Below, piece after piece: positions 854-31,014 of a stretch of 64,000 bases of DNA. Source of the stretch: an uncultured Saprospiraceae bacterium. Its GTDB lineage: Bacteria > Bacteroidota > Bacteroidia > Chitinophagales > Saprospiraceae. The notes under the pieces are model-generated. The model did no database searches. It saw nothing but the letters and a program-made list of their open reading frames with translations, and was not told the origin of the DNA. The position numbers and the translations under genes are program-made. The stretch's first letter is position 1. The number at the start of each line of letters is the position of its first letter. Where the stretch lies: NCBI GenBank assembly GCA_937921775.1, contig CAKZUK010000070.1, forward strand, positions 1-64,000. Reading direction: 5' to 3'.

Positions 854-1267
854 TTAATGAGGCAATCTTGGCTTTAACATCCCATAAACAAGTGCGCCTA
901 ACAGAGCACTTCCTATCACAACTAAAATAATCCAATGTCCCTGCCCTAATAAAGTATACAAGGGTCCTGGACAAGCCCCTGTCAGTGCCCATCCCAATCC
1001 GAATATGGTACCTCCCAAGATACTGGCTACGTAGGTTTTGGGCTTATCACCGAAGGTAATGGTTTCGCCAAAATGGTTTTTCATTTTACCTGATTTAATC
1101 AGAAAATGCATGATGGCACCAGCGACTACAGCGACTCCAATGATTCCATACATGTGAAAACTTTGGAAACGAAACATCTCTTGAATTCGAAACCAAGAAA
1201 CTGCTTCAGACTTTGTCATTACTATTCCAAAAAGGATACCTACAAAAAGAAATTTTAATAATTTCAT
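854..1267 (-). CDS. DUF6691/YeeE-type sulfur transporter, small half
   Basis: Inner-membrane protein of 137 residues with about four membrane segments. It matches the short YeeE/YedE half (DUF6691) that accompanies a second YeeE protein in many Bacteroidota and Proteobacteria. The conserved cysteine motif GACPGP (Cys99) is present. In characterised YeeE proteins, membrane-embedded cysteines relay thiosulfate, so import of thiosulfate or another reduced sulfur compound is the likely role. It lies 19 bases downstream of the larger half, so the two probably form one split transporter. The exact substrate cannot be read from sequence. Confidence 0.88.
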   Translation of the reverse strand: MKLLKFLFVGILFGIVMTKSEAVSWFRIQEMFRFQSFHMYGIIGVAVVAGAIMHFLIKSGKMKNHFGETITFGDKPKTYVASILGGTIFGLGWALTGACPGPLYTLLGQGHWIILVVIGSALLGALVYGMLKPRLPH

Positions 1268-1286: not shown

Positions 1287-1865
1287 TTATGATAAAATAA
1301 GTGGCAATAAAACAAAAGTGGTTAAAAGCCCTCCAATGAAAAAACCAATAACTGCTACAAGTGAAGGCAACTGAAGATTAGACAATCCACTAATTGCGTG
1401 TCCGGACGTGCAACCACCTGCATAGCGTGTTCCAAATCCAACCAAAAAGCCACCAACTACCATTAGTAAAATTCCTTTTAGAGATGTCAACATTTCAAAA
1501 TTGAATAAATCATGAGGAATAAAACCTAATCCCTCGTCAAGCGTTCGGGGGGTCTGAATTCCAAGTTCACTCAAATCCGCTATAGTCGCTGAAGAGATCT
1601 GAACTGGCTCAGGACTTCCCAAGAAGTTGACCGCAATCCCACCTCCAATAATGGCACCCGCCACAAAAACCAATAGCCAATCGTGCTTTTTCCAATCGTA
1701 GTTAAAATAGTCGGCTATCTTTCCAGCACCACCAATACTACACATTGCTTGAAATGAAGAGGAAACTCCAAATCGCTGCCCCAAATAAATCAACAAAAAC
1801 ATCACGAAGGCAATCATAAGTCCTGAAATGGACCAGTGCCAAGGTTGGGAGATAAATTCTATCAT
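1287..1865 (-). CDS. YeeE/YedE family sulfur transporter, large half
   Basis: A 192-residue inner-membrane protein with about five hydrophobic segments. The diagnostic motif RYAGGCTSGHAISG occurs near residues 147-160 with Cys152, and a second cysteine lies in the QAMCSIGG motif (Cys42). These are the cysteines expected to carry sulfur through the membrane in the YeeE family. It sits between the rhodanese-like gene (66-base gap) and the DUF6691 half (19-base gap), all on the minus strand, the usual neighbourhood of sulfur-handling operons. Thiosulfate is the best-known substrate for the family; sulfide or persulfide sulfur export or import is also possible. Confidence 0.88.
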   Translation of the reverse strand: MIEFISQPWHWSISGLMIAFVMFLLIYLGQRFGVSSSFQAMCSIGGAGKIADYFNYDWKKHDWLLVFVAGAIIGGGIAVNFLGSPEPVQISSATIADLSELGIQTPRTLDEGLGFIPHDLFNFEMLTSLKGILLMVVGGFLVGFGTRYAGGCTSGHAISGLSNLQLPSLVAVIGFFIGGLLTTFVLLPLILS

Positions 1866-1931: not shown

Positions 1932-2294
1932 CTAAATCCTTCCTCTTCTCCAGCAGCGATAACCACCCTCTAAATTAAAAATTTGATCTTTTTCAAAACC
2001 ACCATTTCTCATTAATGCGCAAGCTCTTACACTTTTATGCCCTGTATGGGAATAAACAAATACATCGTTCCTATCTTTATAAGGTTCAATACGCTCCCAA
2101 AAGTCATCTGACTGGTAACTAATATTGATCGCCTTTGGAATACTCCCTTTTGCAAATTCATCAGGGCTACTTACATCGATGATAACCGAATCTCGAGACT
2201 TGATTAACTTACGTTGAAATGTTTTTGCTTCCAAGTTTTTAAACAAAGAGTCAAGTGTATTCTCCTGAGTGGACTTTTCAGAATAATTTTTCAT
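1932..2294 (-). CDS. Rhodanese-like domain protein with Cys-to-Ser active site
   Basis: A single rhodanese fold of 120 residues with no signal peptide. The fold landmarks are present: VIIDVSSPDEFAKGSIPKAINI (residues 37-58) and FNLEGGYRCW (106-115). The active-site loop that normally reads C-x-x-G-x-(R/K)-S reads SHTGHKS, putting Ser82 where the persulfide-forming Cys should be; the usual DVR motif is also DVS. Cysteines remain at 92 and 114 but not in the loop. It is therefore predicted to lack ordinary sulfurtransferase activity and may bind or sense sulfur species, or be a structural partner of the YeeE transporter that follows. It is the first gene of the operon and is preceded by a CRP-like operator. 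Confidence 0.9.
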   Translation of the reverse strand: MKNYSEKSTQENTLDSLFKNLEAKTFQRKLIKSRDSVIIDVSSPDEFAKGSIPKAINISYQSDDFWERIEPYKDRNDVFVYSHTGHKSVRACALMRNGGFEKDQIFNLEGGYRCWRRGRI

Positions 2295-2324: not shown

Positions 2325-2332
2325 CAAAGTAA
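2325..2332 (-). promoter_or_regulatory. -7 type promoter box for the rhodanese operon
   Basis: On the minus strand the bases read TTACTTTG, one mismatch from the Bacteroidota -7 consensus TAnnTTTG. It lies 31 bases before the rhodanese start and 21 bases after the CRP-like palindrome at 2354-2369. No -33 TTTG is evident, as might be expected for an activator-dependent promoter. No transcript data support it. Confidence 0.45.
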
Positions 2333-2353: not shown

Positions 2354-2369
2354 TGTGATCTATATCACA
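2354..2369. promoter_or_regulatory. CRP-like operator TGTGATCTATATCACA
   Basis: A 16-base palindrome with perfect TGTGA and TCACA arms and a six-base spacer, identical in design to the Escherichia coli CRP consensus. Its centre is about 36 bases upstream of the last base of the TTACTTTG box, so roughly 40 bases before a likely transcription start, the place where CRP/FNR proteins act as class II activators. The Crp-family protein at 4281-4934 has the recognition residues (R-E-x-x-x-R) that read TGTGA in CRP. A near-identical site at 5342-5357 has the same promoter geometry. Confidence 0.75.
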
Positions 2370-2435
2370 TAAAATACAAAAGAGTGTATTAAGCAACAAT
2401 CAAATTAACTGCTAAATGTCCTGCCTATCTAAGCC

Positions 2436-4094
2436 TTACAAAATCGCTTCGCGTTTCTTAGATGAAGTAATTAATTCAAGCTCTTGTTTTGTATTAGCTA
2501 CAATATTTGAGTTATTCAATTTCGCAGCAGCAGCACTTTGACCTTTTAATGAGAGCAATCTACGTGGATGACGTTTTAATGATTTTTCAAAAATAGCTAA
2601 AGCCGCTTCTGGTTTGTTTTGCTCAAGCAACCATTCACCATAAGCTTCGTGAACAGGTTTGAGAATGACTGGAGGTCCAAAAGAATATTTTAAGCCTTCA
2701 TCCAATTCACTCGCCTTATCAAACCACTCTACTGCCTTTTCGTTTTCACCTTGTAGACTTGCACGAAATGCCTTTAGTTCCATTTCCATTACACTGACCA
2801 TGTCTATATCTAATTGGTTCGCTGGCTTATTCGCATAGCCTCCTGAACTGCACATTGCAAATTGCTTGTCGCCTAATTCCAGCATGGCTTTATTGCGATC
2901 AATTTCCATTGCCTTGATTACCTTAGTCAATTGCTCCTCATTTTTTTCATGATAGCTTCTCATTCCTTCAAGGAAAGAATACCCTGCCCTTTTTGTCAAA
3001 TTTAAGTTTTCGGTATCGATTTTAAGAAATGCGATAGCACCATCCCAAACATTATTTTCAACCATGTGCGCGCCTTTCATGGAGAGTAGGTAAGACTTTG
3101 ATACTTTACTTTTTGTTTCTTCATGATAGCCTTTCATCAAATTCATGACATGGGTAGCCTGTTCTGTTTCGCCTCTTTGCAAAAAACCGTATTGCAACCA
3201 GTTGAGTGCGTGGTAGCTGAGTGCATCCGTTTCCAAATTTTTACGTTTCATACGTTTGACACCTGCGTTCCAGGATGCGATGTTTGAGTTAACGACTTCG
3301 TTCCATTTCCCGAGTGCAACGTAAATGTGTGAAGGCATATGTAAAGCGTGTGCTGCGTCGGGTGCTGTTTTGGAGTAATTGTCAGCAGCGGTCTTCGCCA
3401 AATACGCGTGTTCAGGATCATCATAAGAATGAATTAGATAATGCAGTGCCCCAGGATGTTGCGGGTTTTCTTTGATGATACTTTGAGCGATTTGAGCACT
3501 TTTTTCGTAGAGTTCTTCATTCCTTCCATTTCGGGATGAGCCCAAAAGTGAGATGGCGTAAAATGCTGATACTTCGTGATGCTGTGGGTATTTTTTGGTT
3601 AAGGATTCCATGAAATTTTTATAAGCCAAATCCCGCTCATATTTAGTCCCCTCTCCTAGTAATAATTCAATGGCTTGAAAAAAGTCTTGCTCAATTTCAG
3701 TTTTCACTAGTAATAATCTACTTGCCGAATCGGGAGCTAATTTATTCAATGCAGCTACTGCATCTTCTTTTTCTTGTCGTTGCCAAAGTGTATGATTAAA
3801 AGTCATTGCCTCTCCCCAGTAAGCCATAACAAAAGTTGAATCCAATTGCTGTGCTTCTATGAAAGCTGCACGAGCATCTTCGTATTCAAAACTATGTAAA
3901 AGAAGCAATCCTTTTTCGAATGCTGCTTGCGCTACTTCTGCTCCAGTGACTTCGAATGAGACGTCTCCTAATTTTGATCCCTTTTGAACTGTGTCTGTAC
4001 TTGTTTCCTCTTCTTTAACAAACTCGGTGTTGCCACAAGAGGTAAATACAAAAATGGAGATAATAATAAATAGAATGGCTTTAGGTGTTTGCAT
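2436..4094 (-). CDS. TPR-repeat lipoprotein
   Basis: A 552-residue lipoprotein: signal sequence FIIISIFVFTSC with Cys20 as the probable lipidated residue, then many helical pairs of tetratricopeptide type (for example FEYEDARAAFIEAQQLDSTF and EAALAIFEKSLKRHPRR). TPR arrays mediate protein contacts; no catalytic motif is visible. The motif HALHMPSHIYVALGKW and the pairing HPGALHYLIHS are typical of a family of large TPR proteins common in Bacteroidota whose function is unknown to me. It lies between the Crp regulator (186-base gap) and the rhodanese operon (141-base gap, holding the CRP site), same strand. It is probably not cotranscribed with the rhodanese genes, because these have their own promoter signals. 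Confidence 0.85.
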   Translation of the reverse strand: MQTPKAILFIIISIFVFTSCGNTEFVKEEETSTDTVQKGSKLGDVSFEVTGAEVAQAAFEKGLLLLHSFEYEDARAAFIEAQQLDSTFVMAYWGEAMTFNHTLWQRQEKEDAVAALNKLAPDSASRLLLVKTEIEQDFFQAIELLLGEGTKYERDLAYKNFMESLTKKYPQHHEVSAFYAISLLGSSRNGRNEELYEKSAQIAQSIIKENPQHPGALHYLIHSYDDPEHAYLAKTAADNYSKTAPDAAHALHMPSHIYVALGKWNEVVNSNIASWNAGVKRMKRKNLETDALSYHALNWLQYGFLQRGETEQATHVMNLMKGYHEETKSKVSKSYLLSMKGAHMVENNVWDGAIAFLKIDTENLNLTKRAGYSFLEGMRSYHEKNEEQLTKVIKAMEIDRNKAMLELGDKQFAMCSSGGYANKPANQLDIDMVSVMEMELKAFRASLQGENEKAVEWFDKASELDEGLKYSFGPPVILKPVHEAYGEWLLEQNKPEAALAIFEKSLKRHPRRLLSLKGQSAAAAKLNNSNIVANTKQELELITSSKKREAIL

Positions 4095-4280
4095 ATCTTT
4101 TGGATTTAAGTCTTGAGTTTTTTAGCAAATTTACAAGTACTTAGTATTTTACAAATCAATAGTCATTGAGTACATAAAAACCAAGAATCCAAATATAGCA
4201 TTTTGCTTTAAAATAAAGAGATAAGTAAGCAGGTGTTCAATTTAAATTTCCTAATAACTTCTGATGTCTCAGCGCTTAGC

Positions 4281-4934
4281 TTAGGTATTCAGTTCGATGC
4301 GATTTCTGCCTAAAATGATCGCACCACTTTTTTCAAATTTTTTCAAAATTCGGGAAACGCCTTCACGAGATGAATTTAGGTCTAAAGCAATTTGCTGGTG
4401 GGTACCTAAGAGAATCTTAGAATTTAGGGCTTCAGATCTTGCGATTAGATAATTCTTTAGTCGCTCTTCCATATTATTGAAAACAATATTGTCGATGACT
4501 TCTACCAAATCAAGCATTCGATTATCATAAGCAGACATGACGAATCGGTTCCAACTTTTGTATTTCATCATCCATTCATCAACGAGTTTGATAGGCAAGC
4601 CGATAAAAGTAACATCGTCCTCAGCAATGGTTCTGATATCGCTTTTTTTACTAGCCATGCAACAAGAAAATGACATAGAACAGGTTTCACCACCTTTTAA
4701 GAAATAAAGAAAAATTTCATGGCCTCCGTCATTACCTTCACGCACCACTTTGATGCTTCCAGATATTACTAAAGGAACCATTGTAATATATCTCCCATAA
4801 TCCATCATGACTGTACCTGCCTTGGCATGCATCAATTGCCCTGCCTTAGAAATTTCTTCTACAAGCTTTGGCTCATTCAAGCTTGGGAAATGAGATCTGA
4901 CTAATTTATGTAATTCACTATTTATAGGTTCCAT
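4281..4934 (-). CDS. Crp/Fnr family transcriptional regulator with cysteine cluster
   Basis: A 217-residue regulator with an N-terminal cyclic-nucleotide-binding-type beta barrel (residues 15-125), a long dimerisation helix (about 128-160) and a C-terminal winged helix. The recognition helix reads SSREGVSRIL, with R190, E191 and R195 at the same spacing as the CRP residues that contact TGTGA. The cyclic-nucleotide phosphate-binding signature of CRP is not evident; instead the barrel carries a cysteine cluster, C85 and C91-C92 (GGETCSMSFSCCM), suggesting a redox, persulfide or metal signal. I chose ATG 4934 over the longer frame from 5057, because the extension starts inside a repeat element and starting here gives the usual family length. 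Two operators fitting its helix lie at 2354 and 5342. Confidence 0.9.
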   Translation of the reverse strand: MEPINSELHKLVRSHFPSLNEPKLVEEISKAGQLMHAKAGTVMMDYGRYITMVPLVISGSIKVVREGNDGGHEIFLYFLKGGETCSMSFSCCMASKKSDIRTIAEDDVTFIGLPIKLVDEWMMKYKSWNRFVMSAYDNRMLDLVEVIDNIVFNNMEERLKNYLIARSEALNSKILLGTHQQIALDLNSSREGVSRILKKFEKSGAIILGRNRIELNT

Positions 4935-5003
4935 GTCATTTTTGATTTCATTGACATTTACGAGATATATCGGAATAAAACAATCAGCTAGATGTTTCAT
5001 TAG

Positions 5004-5011
5004 CAAAAATA
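5004..5011 (-). promoter_or_regulatory. Candidate -7 box of the crp-family gene
   Basis: On the minus strand the bases read TATTTTTG, a full match to TAnnTTTG, 69 bases before the ATG at 4934 and just downstream of the inverted-repeat element. No -33 TTTG is found at the usual spacing. The box is short and could be chance. Confidence 0.35.
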
Positions 5012-5046
5012 CGATACAAAGACAAGAAAAAAGATAAAATGAAAGA

Positions 5047-5153
5047 TTCTTTGACAAATCCCGTGGTAGAATCCAATGATAAAATAAAATCAGCGTTCTC
5101 CTCGGACGCTTTTGCTTTTATTTTAACATTGGCCACTTTTATTTGTCAAAAAA
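5047..5153. repeat. MITE-like palindromic element, copy A
   Basis: A 107-base element with terminal inverted repeats TTCTTTGACAAAT and ATTTGTCAAAAAA (one mismatch), and an inner pair CCAATGATAAAAT/ATTTTAACATTGG. It is clearly homologous along its whole length to 18559-18663 and, with an internal deletion, to 28977-29025. The body contains no open reading frame. It lies immediately upstream of the crp-family promoter region and just past the candidate small-RNA terminator. Confidence 0.85.
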
Positions 5154-5157
5154 CGAA

Positions 5158-5194
5158 ATAAAAAAAGAGAGCCTCTTGTAAAAGTGACTCTCTT
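5158..5194 (-). terminator. Intrinsic terminator of the candidate small RNA
   Basis: On the minus strand a stem AAGAGAG (5194-5188) pairs with CTCTCTT (5171-5165) around a 16-base loop and is followed by TTTTTTTATTT. The T-run is on the minus side only, so the terminator is directional toward the crp-family gene. Confidence 0.7.
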
Positions 5195-5307
5195 AAACCT
5201 CAAAAAACCAAATGAAAATTCTTTATGCGCTTTAGCGCTATACTTATATTTTTTTAATTTAATATTAGGTATTAGCTACCTATGTATCAAAATTTATTTC
5301 TTTTCTT
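5158..5307 (-). ncRNA. Candidate Crp-controlled small RNA
   Basis: Between the promoter box at 5314-5321 and the terminator at 5158-5194 the minus strand offers a transcript of about 150 bases. It contains no ATG and no convincing reading frame from an alternative start. It has an internal GCGC-TAAA-GCGC hairpin (about 5228-5239) and ends in a stem followed by a run of seven T. The upstream operator TGTGATCTATGTCACA and the box TAACTTTG give it an activator-dependent promoter. The 5' end is estimated from the box, not observed. Alternatively the transcript could be a leader or attenuator of the crp-family gene beyond it, with read-through across copy A. Confidence 0.45.
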
Positions 5308-5313
5308 ATAAAA

Positions 5314-5321
5314 CAAAGTTA
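5314..5321 (-). promoter_or_regulatory. -7 box TAACTTTG of the candidate small RNA
   Basis: Full match to the Bacteroidota TAnnTTTG box on the minus strand, 20 bases downstream of the CRP-like site at 5342-5357. The rhodanese promoter has the matching pair at a spacing of 21 bases. The repeated geometry is the main reason to believe both. Confidence 0.5.
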
Positions 5322-5341
5322 CGGATATTTAGACGAAACTT

Positions 5342-5357
5342 TGTGATCTATGTCACA
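5342..5357. promoter_or_regulatory. CRP-like operator TGTGATCTATGTCACA
   Basis: A 16-base palindrome with perfect TGTGA/TCACA arms, differing from the site at 2354-2369 by one spacer base. It is 407 bases upstream of the crp-family start, with the candidate small RNA, its terminator and repeat copy A in between. The nearest open reading frame on the plus side is on the minus strand and reads toward it, so the site most likely serves minus-strand transcription. Confidence 0.7.
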
Positions 5358-29628: not shown

Positions 29629-31014
29629 CTAAACCTCCGTATTAGCTTTAATAAGCTCCGCATACCAAAGTGCAGAAGCCTTCGGTGTTCGCACAAGTGT
29701 TTCATAATCAACATGATGGATTCCAAAACGCTTGCTATAGCCAGAAGCCCATTCGAAGTTATCCATAAATGACCAAACGAAATAACCTTTTAGTTGTACG
29801 CCATTTTCAATGGCTTCGTGGCAAGCTTCAAGGTAGGTTTTTATATAATCGAGGCGATTTTGATCGTCTACTTTGCCATCTATCATTTCATTATCCATAG
29901 CACAACCATTTTCAGTGATGTAGATCTCTGGAGAATCGTAACGTTCATTGATCCATTCCAATAGTTTTCGGCAACCCCAAGGAACAAGGTTCCAGCCCAT
30001 AGCTGTTTTCTTCCATTCAGGATCAGAACTTAGGTTAATCATTTGATCTTCTGCCATACCACTATTATCATAAACGCTGGTTTCTATCAAACCTTCAGAT
30101 CCATCTGAGACCAACATAGTACTATAATGATTGAGCCCAAAAAAGTCGGAAGAGTTTTTCAAAAGAGCCTTTTCACTATCTGTAAAAACAGGAAGCCGCT
30201 CTCCCACTCGATCTCGCATACACTTTGGATAATCACCCAAATAAATCGGATCAGCAAACCAAGCTAAAAAGAATTCCATGGCTCTTTGCGCAGCAGCAAT
30301 ATCCTTTGGGTCATCGGTAGCAGGTTCCCGCCAATCACAATTATTAGTGATCCCAATTTTTCCTTTTTGATTTGTTTGAAATTCCTTGCGGTAAACGTCT
30401 ACAGCCTTTGCATGTGCAAGCAGCACATTATGACCTGCTTGATAAGGCTCTGCATTCGAAACCCGACCAGGCGCAAACAAACCCATTCCATATCCCAAAA
30501 CAGTTATCACCCAAGGCTCATTAATGGTAATCCAGTTTTTGACCCGATCACCAAAATGCTGATAACATACTCTAGCATAATCTGCAAACAAATCAGAGAT
30601 GTCATCGCCCAACCAACCATCGTTCTCAAACTCCAATGCCAATGGCATATCCCAATGATAGAGCGTTACCCATGGCTCAATATCATTAGCCAGCAATTCA
30701 TCAATAAGGTCGGAGTAAAACTGAATGCCTTTTTCATTGATTTTATCTGCTCTTCCGTTTGGCAGAATTCGTGGCCAAGCAATTGAAAAACGATAAGCTT
30801 GCAAACCCAAATTCTTCATGAGTTGTACATCTTCTTTCATCTTGTGATAATGGTCACAAGCGAGATCACCTGTGTCGTTGGAGTCTACCTTACCTGGAAT
30901 TTGGCAAAAGGCGTCCCATATGGATGGGCCTTTGCCGTCTTTGTTGGCAGCTCCTTCTATTTGAAATGCTGAGGTGGCAGTACCCCAGAGGAAATCTTTT
31001 GGGAAGTGTTTCAT
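29629..31014 (-). CDS. GH1 beta-glucosidase
   Basis: A 461-residue family 1 glycoside hydrolase, full length, no signal peptide, so cytoplasmic. The N-terminal signature DFLWGTATSAFQIEGA (6-21), the acid/base motif TINEPW (about 163-168) and the nucleophile motif YITENGCA (about 350-357) are intact, as are WSFMDNFEWASGYSKRFG residues that bind the sugar. It hydrolyses beta-linked glucosides or galactosides after import. No transporter is adjacent. It is convergent with nothing and separated from glmM by a hairpin. Confidence 0.95.
   Translation of the reverse strand: MKHFPKDFLWGTATSAFQIEGAANKDGKGPSIWDAFCQIPGKVDSNDTGDLACDHYHKMKEDVQLMKNLGLQAYRFSIAWPRILPNGRADKINEKGIQFYSDLIDELLANDIEPWVTLYHWDMPLALEFENDGWLGDDISDLFADYARVCYQHFGDRVKNWITINEPWVITVLGYGMGLFAPGRVSNAEPYQAGHNVLLAHAKAVDVYRKEFQTNQKGKIGITNNCDWREPATDDPKDIAAAQRAMEFFLAWFADPIYLGDYPKCMRDRVGERLPVFTDSEKALLKNSSDFFGLNHYSTMLVSDGSEGLIETSVYDNSGMAEDQMINLSSDPEWKKTAMGWNLVPWGCRKLLEWINERYDSPEIYITENGCAMDNEMIDGKVDDQNRLDYIKTYLEACHEAIENGVQLKGYFVWSFMDNFEWASGYSKRFGIHHVDYETLVRTPKASALWYAELIKANTEV

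Follow-up and report, generated by a model that had tools for sequence, protein, structure and literature searches.

Two CRP-like palindromes flank the gene for a Crp/Fnr-type regulator in the DNA of an uncultured Saprospiraceae bacterium, and the question is whether this protein reads them, what it would switch on and which signal it would answer. The stretch analyzed here, called the window, comprises positions 1 to 64,000 of contig CAKZUK010000070.1, from a genome of 6.28 Mb in 259 contigs. We propose, with a probability of about 0.8, that the Cys-rich Crp protein activates a reactive-sulfur regulon, including a sulfur operon and a small RNA (sRNA), through class II sites. The sites, their spacing and conservation, their covariation with the protein, the gene context and the sRNA family are established from the sequence; binding, activation, start sites and the signal are what we infer. 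The core features are as follows:

2354 to 2369, no strand assigned: operator 1, TGTGATCTATATCACA, direct sequence match.
2325 to 2332, minus strand: -7 type box TTACTTTG of the predicted sulfur operon promoter, 21 nt after operator 1.
5342 to 5357, no strand assigned: operator 2, TGTGATCTATGTCACA (minus strand, TGTGACATAGATCACA), direct sequence match.
5314 to 5321, minus strand: -7 type box TAACTTTG of the predicted sRNA promoter, 20 nt after operator 2.
4281 to 4934, minus strand: Cys-rich Crp/Fnr-type regulator, 217 aa (PF13545).

An initial annotation of this DNA had reported both operators and their box spacings of 21 and 20 nt, and direct matching confirmed these sequences, coordinates and distances. 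It had also described both boxes as TAnnTTTG-like; TTACTTTG is one base off the motif. The bare palindrome is weak evidence by itself, with six copies in the genome versus three for the reversed control. The same annotation had suggested a genome-wide scan for operators followed by a box, and had considered that random copies in coding DNA would speak against regulation. Three of the four further palindromes do fall within coding frames, but the operator followed by 20-22 nt and a box occurs at exactly two places in 6.28 Mb, both in the window (control, 0). The operator-box observation is real and far beyond chance. A third palindrome in the window (30843-30858) was rejected as an operator, as it lies within a 461-codon frame without a fitting box. 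Elsewhere in the genome, an intergenic palindrome (L006, G000:C202:8115-8130) reads TGTGATTAAGATCACA on the minus strand, 22 nt from AAAATTTG, a box too weak to count; a strong terminator then follows, without an open reading frame (ORF).

Class II activation by E. coli CRP takes place from a site centered at -41.5. If the box occupies -12 to -5, its mapped position in Flavobacterium psychrophilum (PMC9723704), transcription is predicted to start at 2320 and 5309, with operators 1 and 2 centered at -41.5 and -40.5, respectively; a gap of 21 nt thus corresponds to -41.5. In the sister species, a genome of the same genus (G001, locus L007), operator 1 reads TGTGACATACATCACA (L007:5898), with all ten conserved positions kept, and operator 2 (L007:2467) is the identical 16-mer. 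Both boxes are there 21 nt from their operators, operator 2 being centered at -41.5, and the DNA between and around the sites has drifted. For a phylogenetic footprint, we searched 51 loci with the Crp protein (724 kb) for exact copies of TGTGA-N6-TCAC that have a TAnnTTTG-like box after a gap of 5 to 45 nt. The gap was 21 nt in 34 of the 45 pairs found, 22 nt in four, 20 nt in one and any other length in six, while dinucleotide-shuffled DNA of these loci gave 0.5 pairs over all gaps. The strict architecture is present in 125 of 298 Saprospiraceae genomes and 67 of 112 genera, with one match in the reversed control. These counts support the class II position that the initial annotation had assigned.

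The regulator belongs to the Crp/Fnr superfamily (PF13545, 34.9 bits; PF00325, 22.3 bits), and its AlphaFold2 model (pLDDT 83.6) matches CRP/FNR structures, with a Crp-type helix-turn-helix (HTH) and beta-roll fold. Its recognition helix reads S189-R190-E191-G-V-S-R195, so that R190, E191 and R195 had been numbered correctly for the 217-aa protein. R190 and R195 are present in 51/51 orthologs and E191 in 48, with V in the other three, which belong to Cochleicola (L013), Galbibacter (L014) and a Chitinophagaceae metagenome-assembled genome (L015). No TGTGA site with a box was found at these three loci; they carry TGTAA-type sites (TGTAACATTGGTTACC, TGTAACATCGGTTACC, TGTAACAATGGTTACA and TGTAACCAATGTTACT) that keep the 21-nt gap and lie 5′ of genes for TauE, persulfide dioxygenase and YeeE, and L015 has the hybrid site TGTAACAAAAGTCACC. 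TGTGA and TGTAA sites number 46 and 2 at loci with E191, and 0 and 5 at those with V191 (Fisher p 7e-6), a test in which related loci are not independent and count as one or two events. Since TGTGA turns into TGTAA where E191 is valine, the covariation ties the Crp protein to the site at the sequence level. Changing E181 of E. coli CRP to V or a similar residue shifts preference at the same half-site position, and the E/V switch described here would be a natural counterpart of those classic specificity mutants.

Operator 1 stands 5′ of a minus-strand operon of three genes:

1932 to 2294, minus strand: rhodanese-domain protein, first gene of the sulfur operon (Pfam PF00581, 57 bits).
1287 to 1865, minus strand: YeeE/YedE-type sulfur transporter, first half, 192 aa (PF04143, 65 bits).
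854 to 1267, minus strand: YeeE/YedE-type sulfur transporter, second half, DUF6691, 137 aa (PF20398, 36 bits; PF04143, 32 bits).

The first transporter half matched the thiosulfate transporter TsuA model weakly, far under its cut-off. Across the family, we examined 131 distinct sites of this architecture, 62 of which lie directly 5′ of genes for persulfide dioxygenase (32), rhodanese (14), YeeE (8) or SulP (8). The gene crp follows at two, one being the sister's sRNA site. Another 59 sites precede genes classed as 'other', among which we recognized, by eye, more rhodanese, thioredoxin, SQR-like, peroxiredoxin and YgaP-like genes; hidden Markov models were applied to the YgaP-like assignment only, which scored under its cut-off. 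Together with the covariation at residue 191, these family-wide sulfur targets support the earlier proposal that the Crp protein controls the sulfur operon.

Several proteins of other kinds were seen in these surroundings. A ~75-aa membrane-like protein (LTLGLAPFFPEPHxxGKxRWVxGGAxGM) recurs directly 3′ of the sulfur operator at L197, L213, L219, L225, L229, L235, L248, L249, L292 and L297, with no Pfam match in the one copy searched. A 137-aa membrane-like protein directly follows the operator in two genomes (L184, L202), the L184 copy having no Pfam match. At L263, L265 and L267, a sulfur-type operator at -41.5 precedes a 310-aa protein that by eye resembles PaaA, a phenylacetate-CoA oxygenase subunit. 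In the window, a TPR protein of 552 aa (2436-4094; 82% identity to the sister's copy) lies between crp and the sulfur operon.

The sensor domain of the regulator carries the motif C85-x5-C91-C92. C85 and C91 are conserved in 51/51 orthologs and C92 in 50/51, the sole exception being C92S in a distant relative. Like CRP, the regulator is predicted to act through TGTGA sites centered at -41.5; it nevertheless scored 24.3 bits against the CRP equivalog model (cut-off 266) and gave no match to the cyclic-nucleotide domain PF00027 at E<=0.001. C85, C91 and C92 are its only cysteines, and the N-terminal Cys cluster that holds [4Fe-4S] in FNR is absent. A conserved cysteine pair or set is what characterizes the persulfide-sensing regulators BigR, SqrR, CstR and FisR, and the regulator has such a set too; the folds differ, making this a functional analogy rather than membership. 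The conserved cysteines, the failure of the CRP and cyclic-nucleotide models and the target genes together point to reactive sulfur, as persulfide or sulfide, as the signal sensed.

What, then, does operator 2 control? The initial annotation had postulated a second transcript without recognizing its nature. The existence of this transcript is supported; its predicted identity is new, namely a noncoding RNA whose terminator lies ahead of crp. The relevant features are as follows:

5160 to 5309, minus strand: small noncoding RNA, ~150 nt, without ATG ORF; fold and conserved family.
5196 to 5218, minus strand: conserved 23-nt sRNA module TTTTCATTTGGTTTTTTGAGGTT; family conservation.
5160 to 5195, minus strand: intrinsic terminator of the sRNA, hairpin GAGAGTCAC...GAGGCTCTC and T7; fold and family T runs.
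5004 to 5011, minus strand: candidate separate crp promoter box TATTTTTG; sequence match only.

Transcription from the predicted start at 5309 would reach the terminator ending at 5160, well ahead of crp at 4934. The segment has no ATG ORF, its longest frame being 14 codons from a TTG, and its fold z-score is -2.41 (sister copy, -2.68). Its 3′ end consists of the module followed by the hairpin and T7. By these sequence features, the second transcript is a ~150-nt noncoding RNA and not crp.

The module defines an sRNA family. In its GGGG form it is unchanged in at least 20 genera, and with <=1 mismatch it is found in 204/298 Saprospiraceae genomes and 88/112 genera (reversed control, 0); in order-level genomes beyond Saprospiraceae it was found only at one contig edge. 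There are one to five copies per genome, mostly distant from crp, and five in the genome studied here. A T run on the sRNA strand follows the module in 66/75 members, which fixes the direction of transcription. No RNAalifold consensus was obtained over all hairpins, whose stems differ in sequence and length; folded individually, 67/70 lie below -5 kcal/mol. Rfam gave no match at the gathering threshold, a search of nine loci at E<=1 was negative as well, and Hfq (PF17209) had no match in this genome, which is 93% complete, with positive control searches. The module holds the reverse complement of an ATG context, and its pairing with translation starts ranked 3 of 40 shuffled modules. We do not claim general pairing of this kind, given this rank and the common natural variant TTTTCAATTGG, which drops the ATG complement; no near-perfect target was found in the genome.

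Upstream of 74 members, TAnnTTTG boxes occur in 32 and TGTG(A/T)C-N13-19-CGTC, resembling promoters of extracytoplasmic function (ECF) sigma factors, in 17 (0.05 expected). Given these differing elements, the siblings seem to answer different signals, and the ECF-like promoters suggest stress-sigma control of part of the family. Siblings with TGTGAC-N13-19-CGTC include L034, L048, L130, L131, L134-L136 and L141. Tandem pairs ~100-340 nt apart occur at L137-L141 and L048, and triplets in G080 and G169. An sRNA of this family under the sulfur operator was seen in the window's genus only, the search in other genera (66-126 nt) being one that misses the longer spacing of the window. Elsewhere, at L178, L210 and twice in L211, the same operator leads into short ORF-less, terminator-ended segments unrelated in sequence to the window sRNA, so the sulfur regulon may repeatedly include an sRNA arm. 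These candidate further sRNAs (L178:1501, G110:C221; L210:1001, G078:C25; L211:1001 and 1401, G078:C32) have an exact class II operator, ~100-122 nt without an ORF and a hairpin or T-run terminator.

In the mechanism that we propose, the protein encoded at 4281-4934 would act as the transcription activator of a reactive-sulfur regulon. Its dimer would bind TGTGAY-N4-RTCACN centered at -41.5, upstream of Bacteroidetes TAnnTTTG promoters, and would switch on the rhodanese and split YeeE/YedE transporter genes from operator 1 and the ~150-nt RNA from operator 2; this RNA would be transcribed and act on mRNA targets. Since the sensor domain carries three essentially invariant cysteines, the likely trigger, rather than cAMP, would be oxidation of the C85/C91/C92 thiols by sulfane sulfur or persulfide or, alternatively, a cofactor bound by cysteine being lost or gained.

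Four observations weigh against this proposal: our sulfur queries left the next gene unclassified at about half of the sites across the family; 24/51 Crp loci have no exact operator with a box nearby, so that regulator and targets would often be unlinked; three V191 loci, and probably one or two evolutionary events, are the basis of the residue-operator change; and operator 2 of the window is centered at -40.5 rather than -41.5. The operators also lie far from crp in many genomes of the family, and this genome encodes five clear Crp-type HTH proteins, so another of them, such as a true CRP or FNR homologue, might read the sites while the Cys-rich Crp has other targets. We regard this as very doubtful, in that R-E-x3-R is found in the 4281-4934 regulator only, the recognition helices of the remaining four being AKESVIR or SRQTVT(S/T)V, and the operators recur beside Cys-rich crp and sulfur genes and vary with residue 191. 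A different doubt concerns the signal. The C-x5-CC motif could ligate a metal, and Cys-ligated sensors such as FNR are known among Crp/Fnr proteins; the cysteines might therefore hold metal, Fe-S or heme, the regulon answering oxygen or NO with the sulfur genes downstream. With most classified targets being sulfide or persulfide genes, and without FNR-like N-terminal cysteines, this is rather unlikely, albeit not negligible.

Two further readings concern the sRNA. Operator 2 might instead supply the -35 half of a promoter for an ECF sigma factor (TGTGAC-N16-CGTC), of the kind used by sibling sRNAs, and the window site is indeed among the 17 ECF-like cases. The sister, however, retains the full palindrome and the TAACTTTG box without CGTC, and an ECF promoter leaves the reverse half-site unexplained; we give it little credence as a replacement for Crp control, and both promoters could coexist. 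Since the gene that comes next on the sRNA strand, ~225 nt past the terminator, is crp, segment 5309-5160 might also be a crp leader or attenuator instead of a free sRNA. This is improbable: the module-terminator family lies mostly away from crp, and a separate candidate box for crp is present at 5011-5004.

Returning to activation by the Cys-rich Crp, a broader version would be a cAMP-independent, family-wide Crp class that senses reactive sulfur through a Cys-rich pocket and whose regulon repeatedly recruits sRNAs, here a member of the new Saprospiraceae family and, in L178, L210 and L211, unrelated transcripts. We put it forward tentatively, as somewhat less than an even chance.

Our literature search, with subscription papers outside its scope, returned no description of the Cys-rich Crp regulator or the sRNA family. 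New here are a regulon with sites at -41.5 across the family, the covariation of residue 191 with the operator, the Cys-rich segment in the sensor domain and the recognition of the second transcript as a member of a new sRNA family. If true, sulfur activation by a Crp-type protein, from a single operator whose precise spacing is shared by much of a large family of environmental bacteria, would be a new design, and the sRNA family, in about two thirds of the sampled Saprospiraceae genomes, would be a riboregulator with a nearly invariant 23-nt element. E. coli CRP shares with the regulator the TGTGA-N6-TCACA site, the center at -41.5, the R-E-x3-R helix and the Crp fold, and differs in the Cys-rich sensor segment, the Bacteroidetes TAnnTTTG promoter and the sulfur regulon of the latter. 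The nearest solved sequence and fold, 3dv8, a structural genomics Crp/Fnr protein of Eubacterium rectale, is from another phylum (61 bits; 26% identity in the fold search; two cysteine positions match). In Yersinia, a Crp-type protein likewise controls sRNAs, although its regulon is temperature- and carbon-linked and belongs to another phylum, whereas the Crp of the window is linked to sulfur and its sRNA belongs to an unrelated family (PMC4376681). The window transporter resembles the YeeE-family transporters SoxT/TsuA in its Sulf_transp family and in adjoining sulfur genes and a regulator, but is split into proteins of 192 and 137 aa (PMC11582611). The persulfide regulators named in the cited papers are ArsR-type and MarR-type repressors and sigma-54 activators. 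In Acinetobacter baumannii, BigR, a repressor that senses persulfide, governs the yeeE-yedE-pdo2 operon, and the BigR/FisR system, like the regulon proposed here, combines persulfide dioxygenase and YeeE/YedE genes with a dedicated sulfur-responsive regulator (PMC7315123). BigR is a repressor and FisR a sigma-54 activator, whereas the window regulator would be a Crp/Fnr-type activator; by analogy, an activator with a different fold seems to do here what BigR does in A. baumannii.

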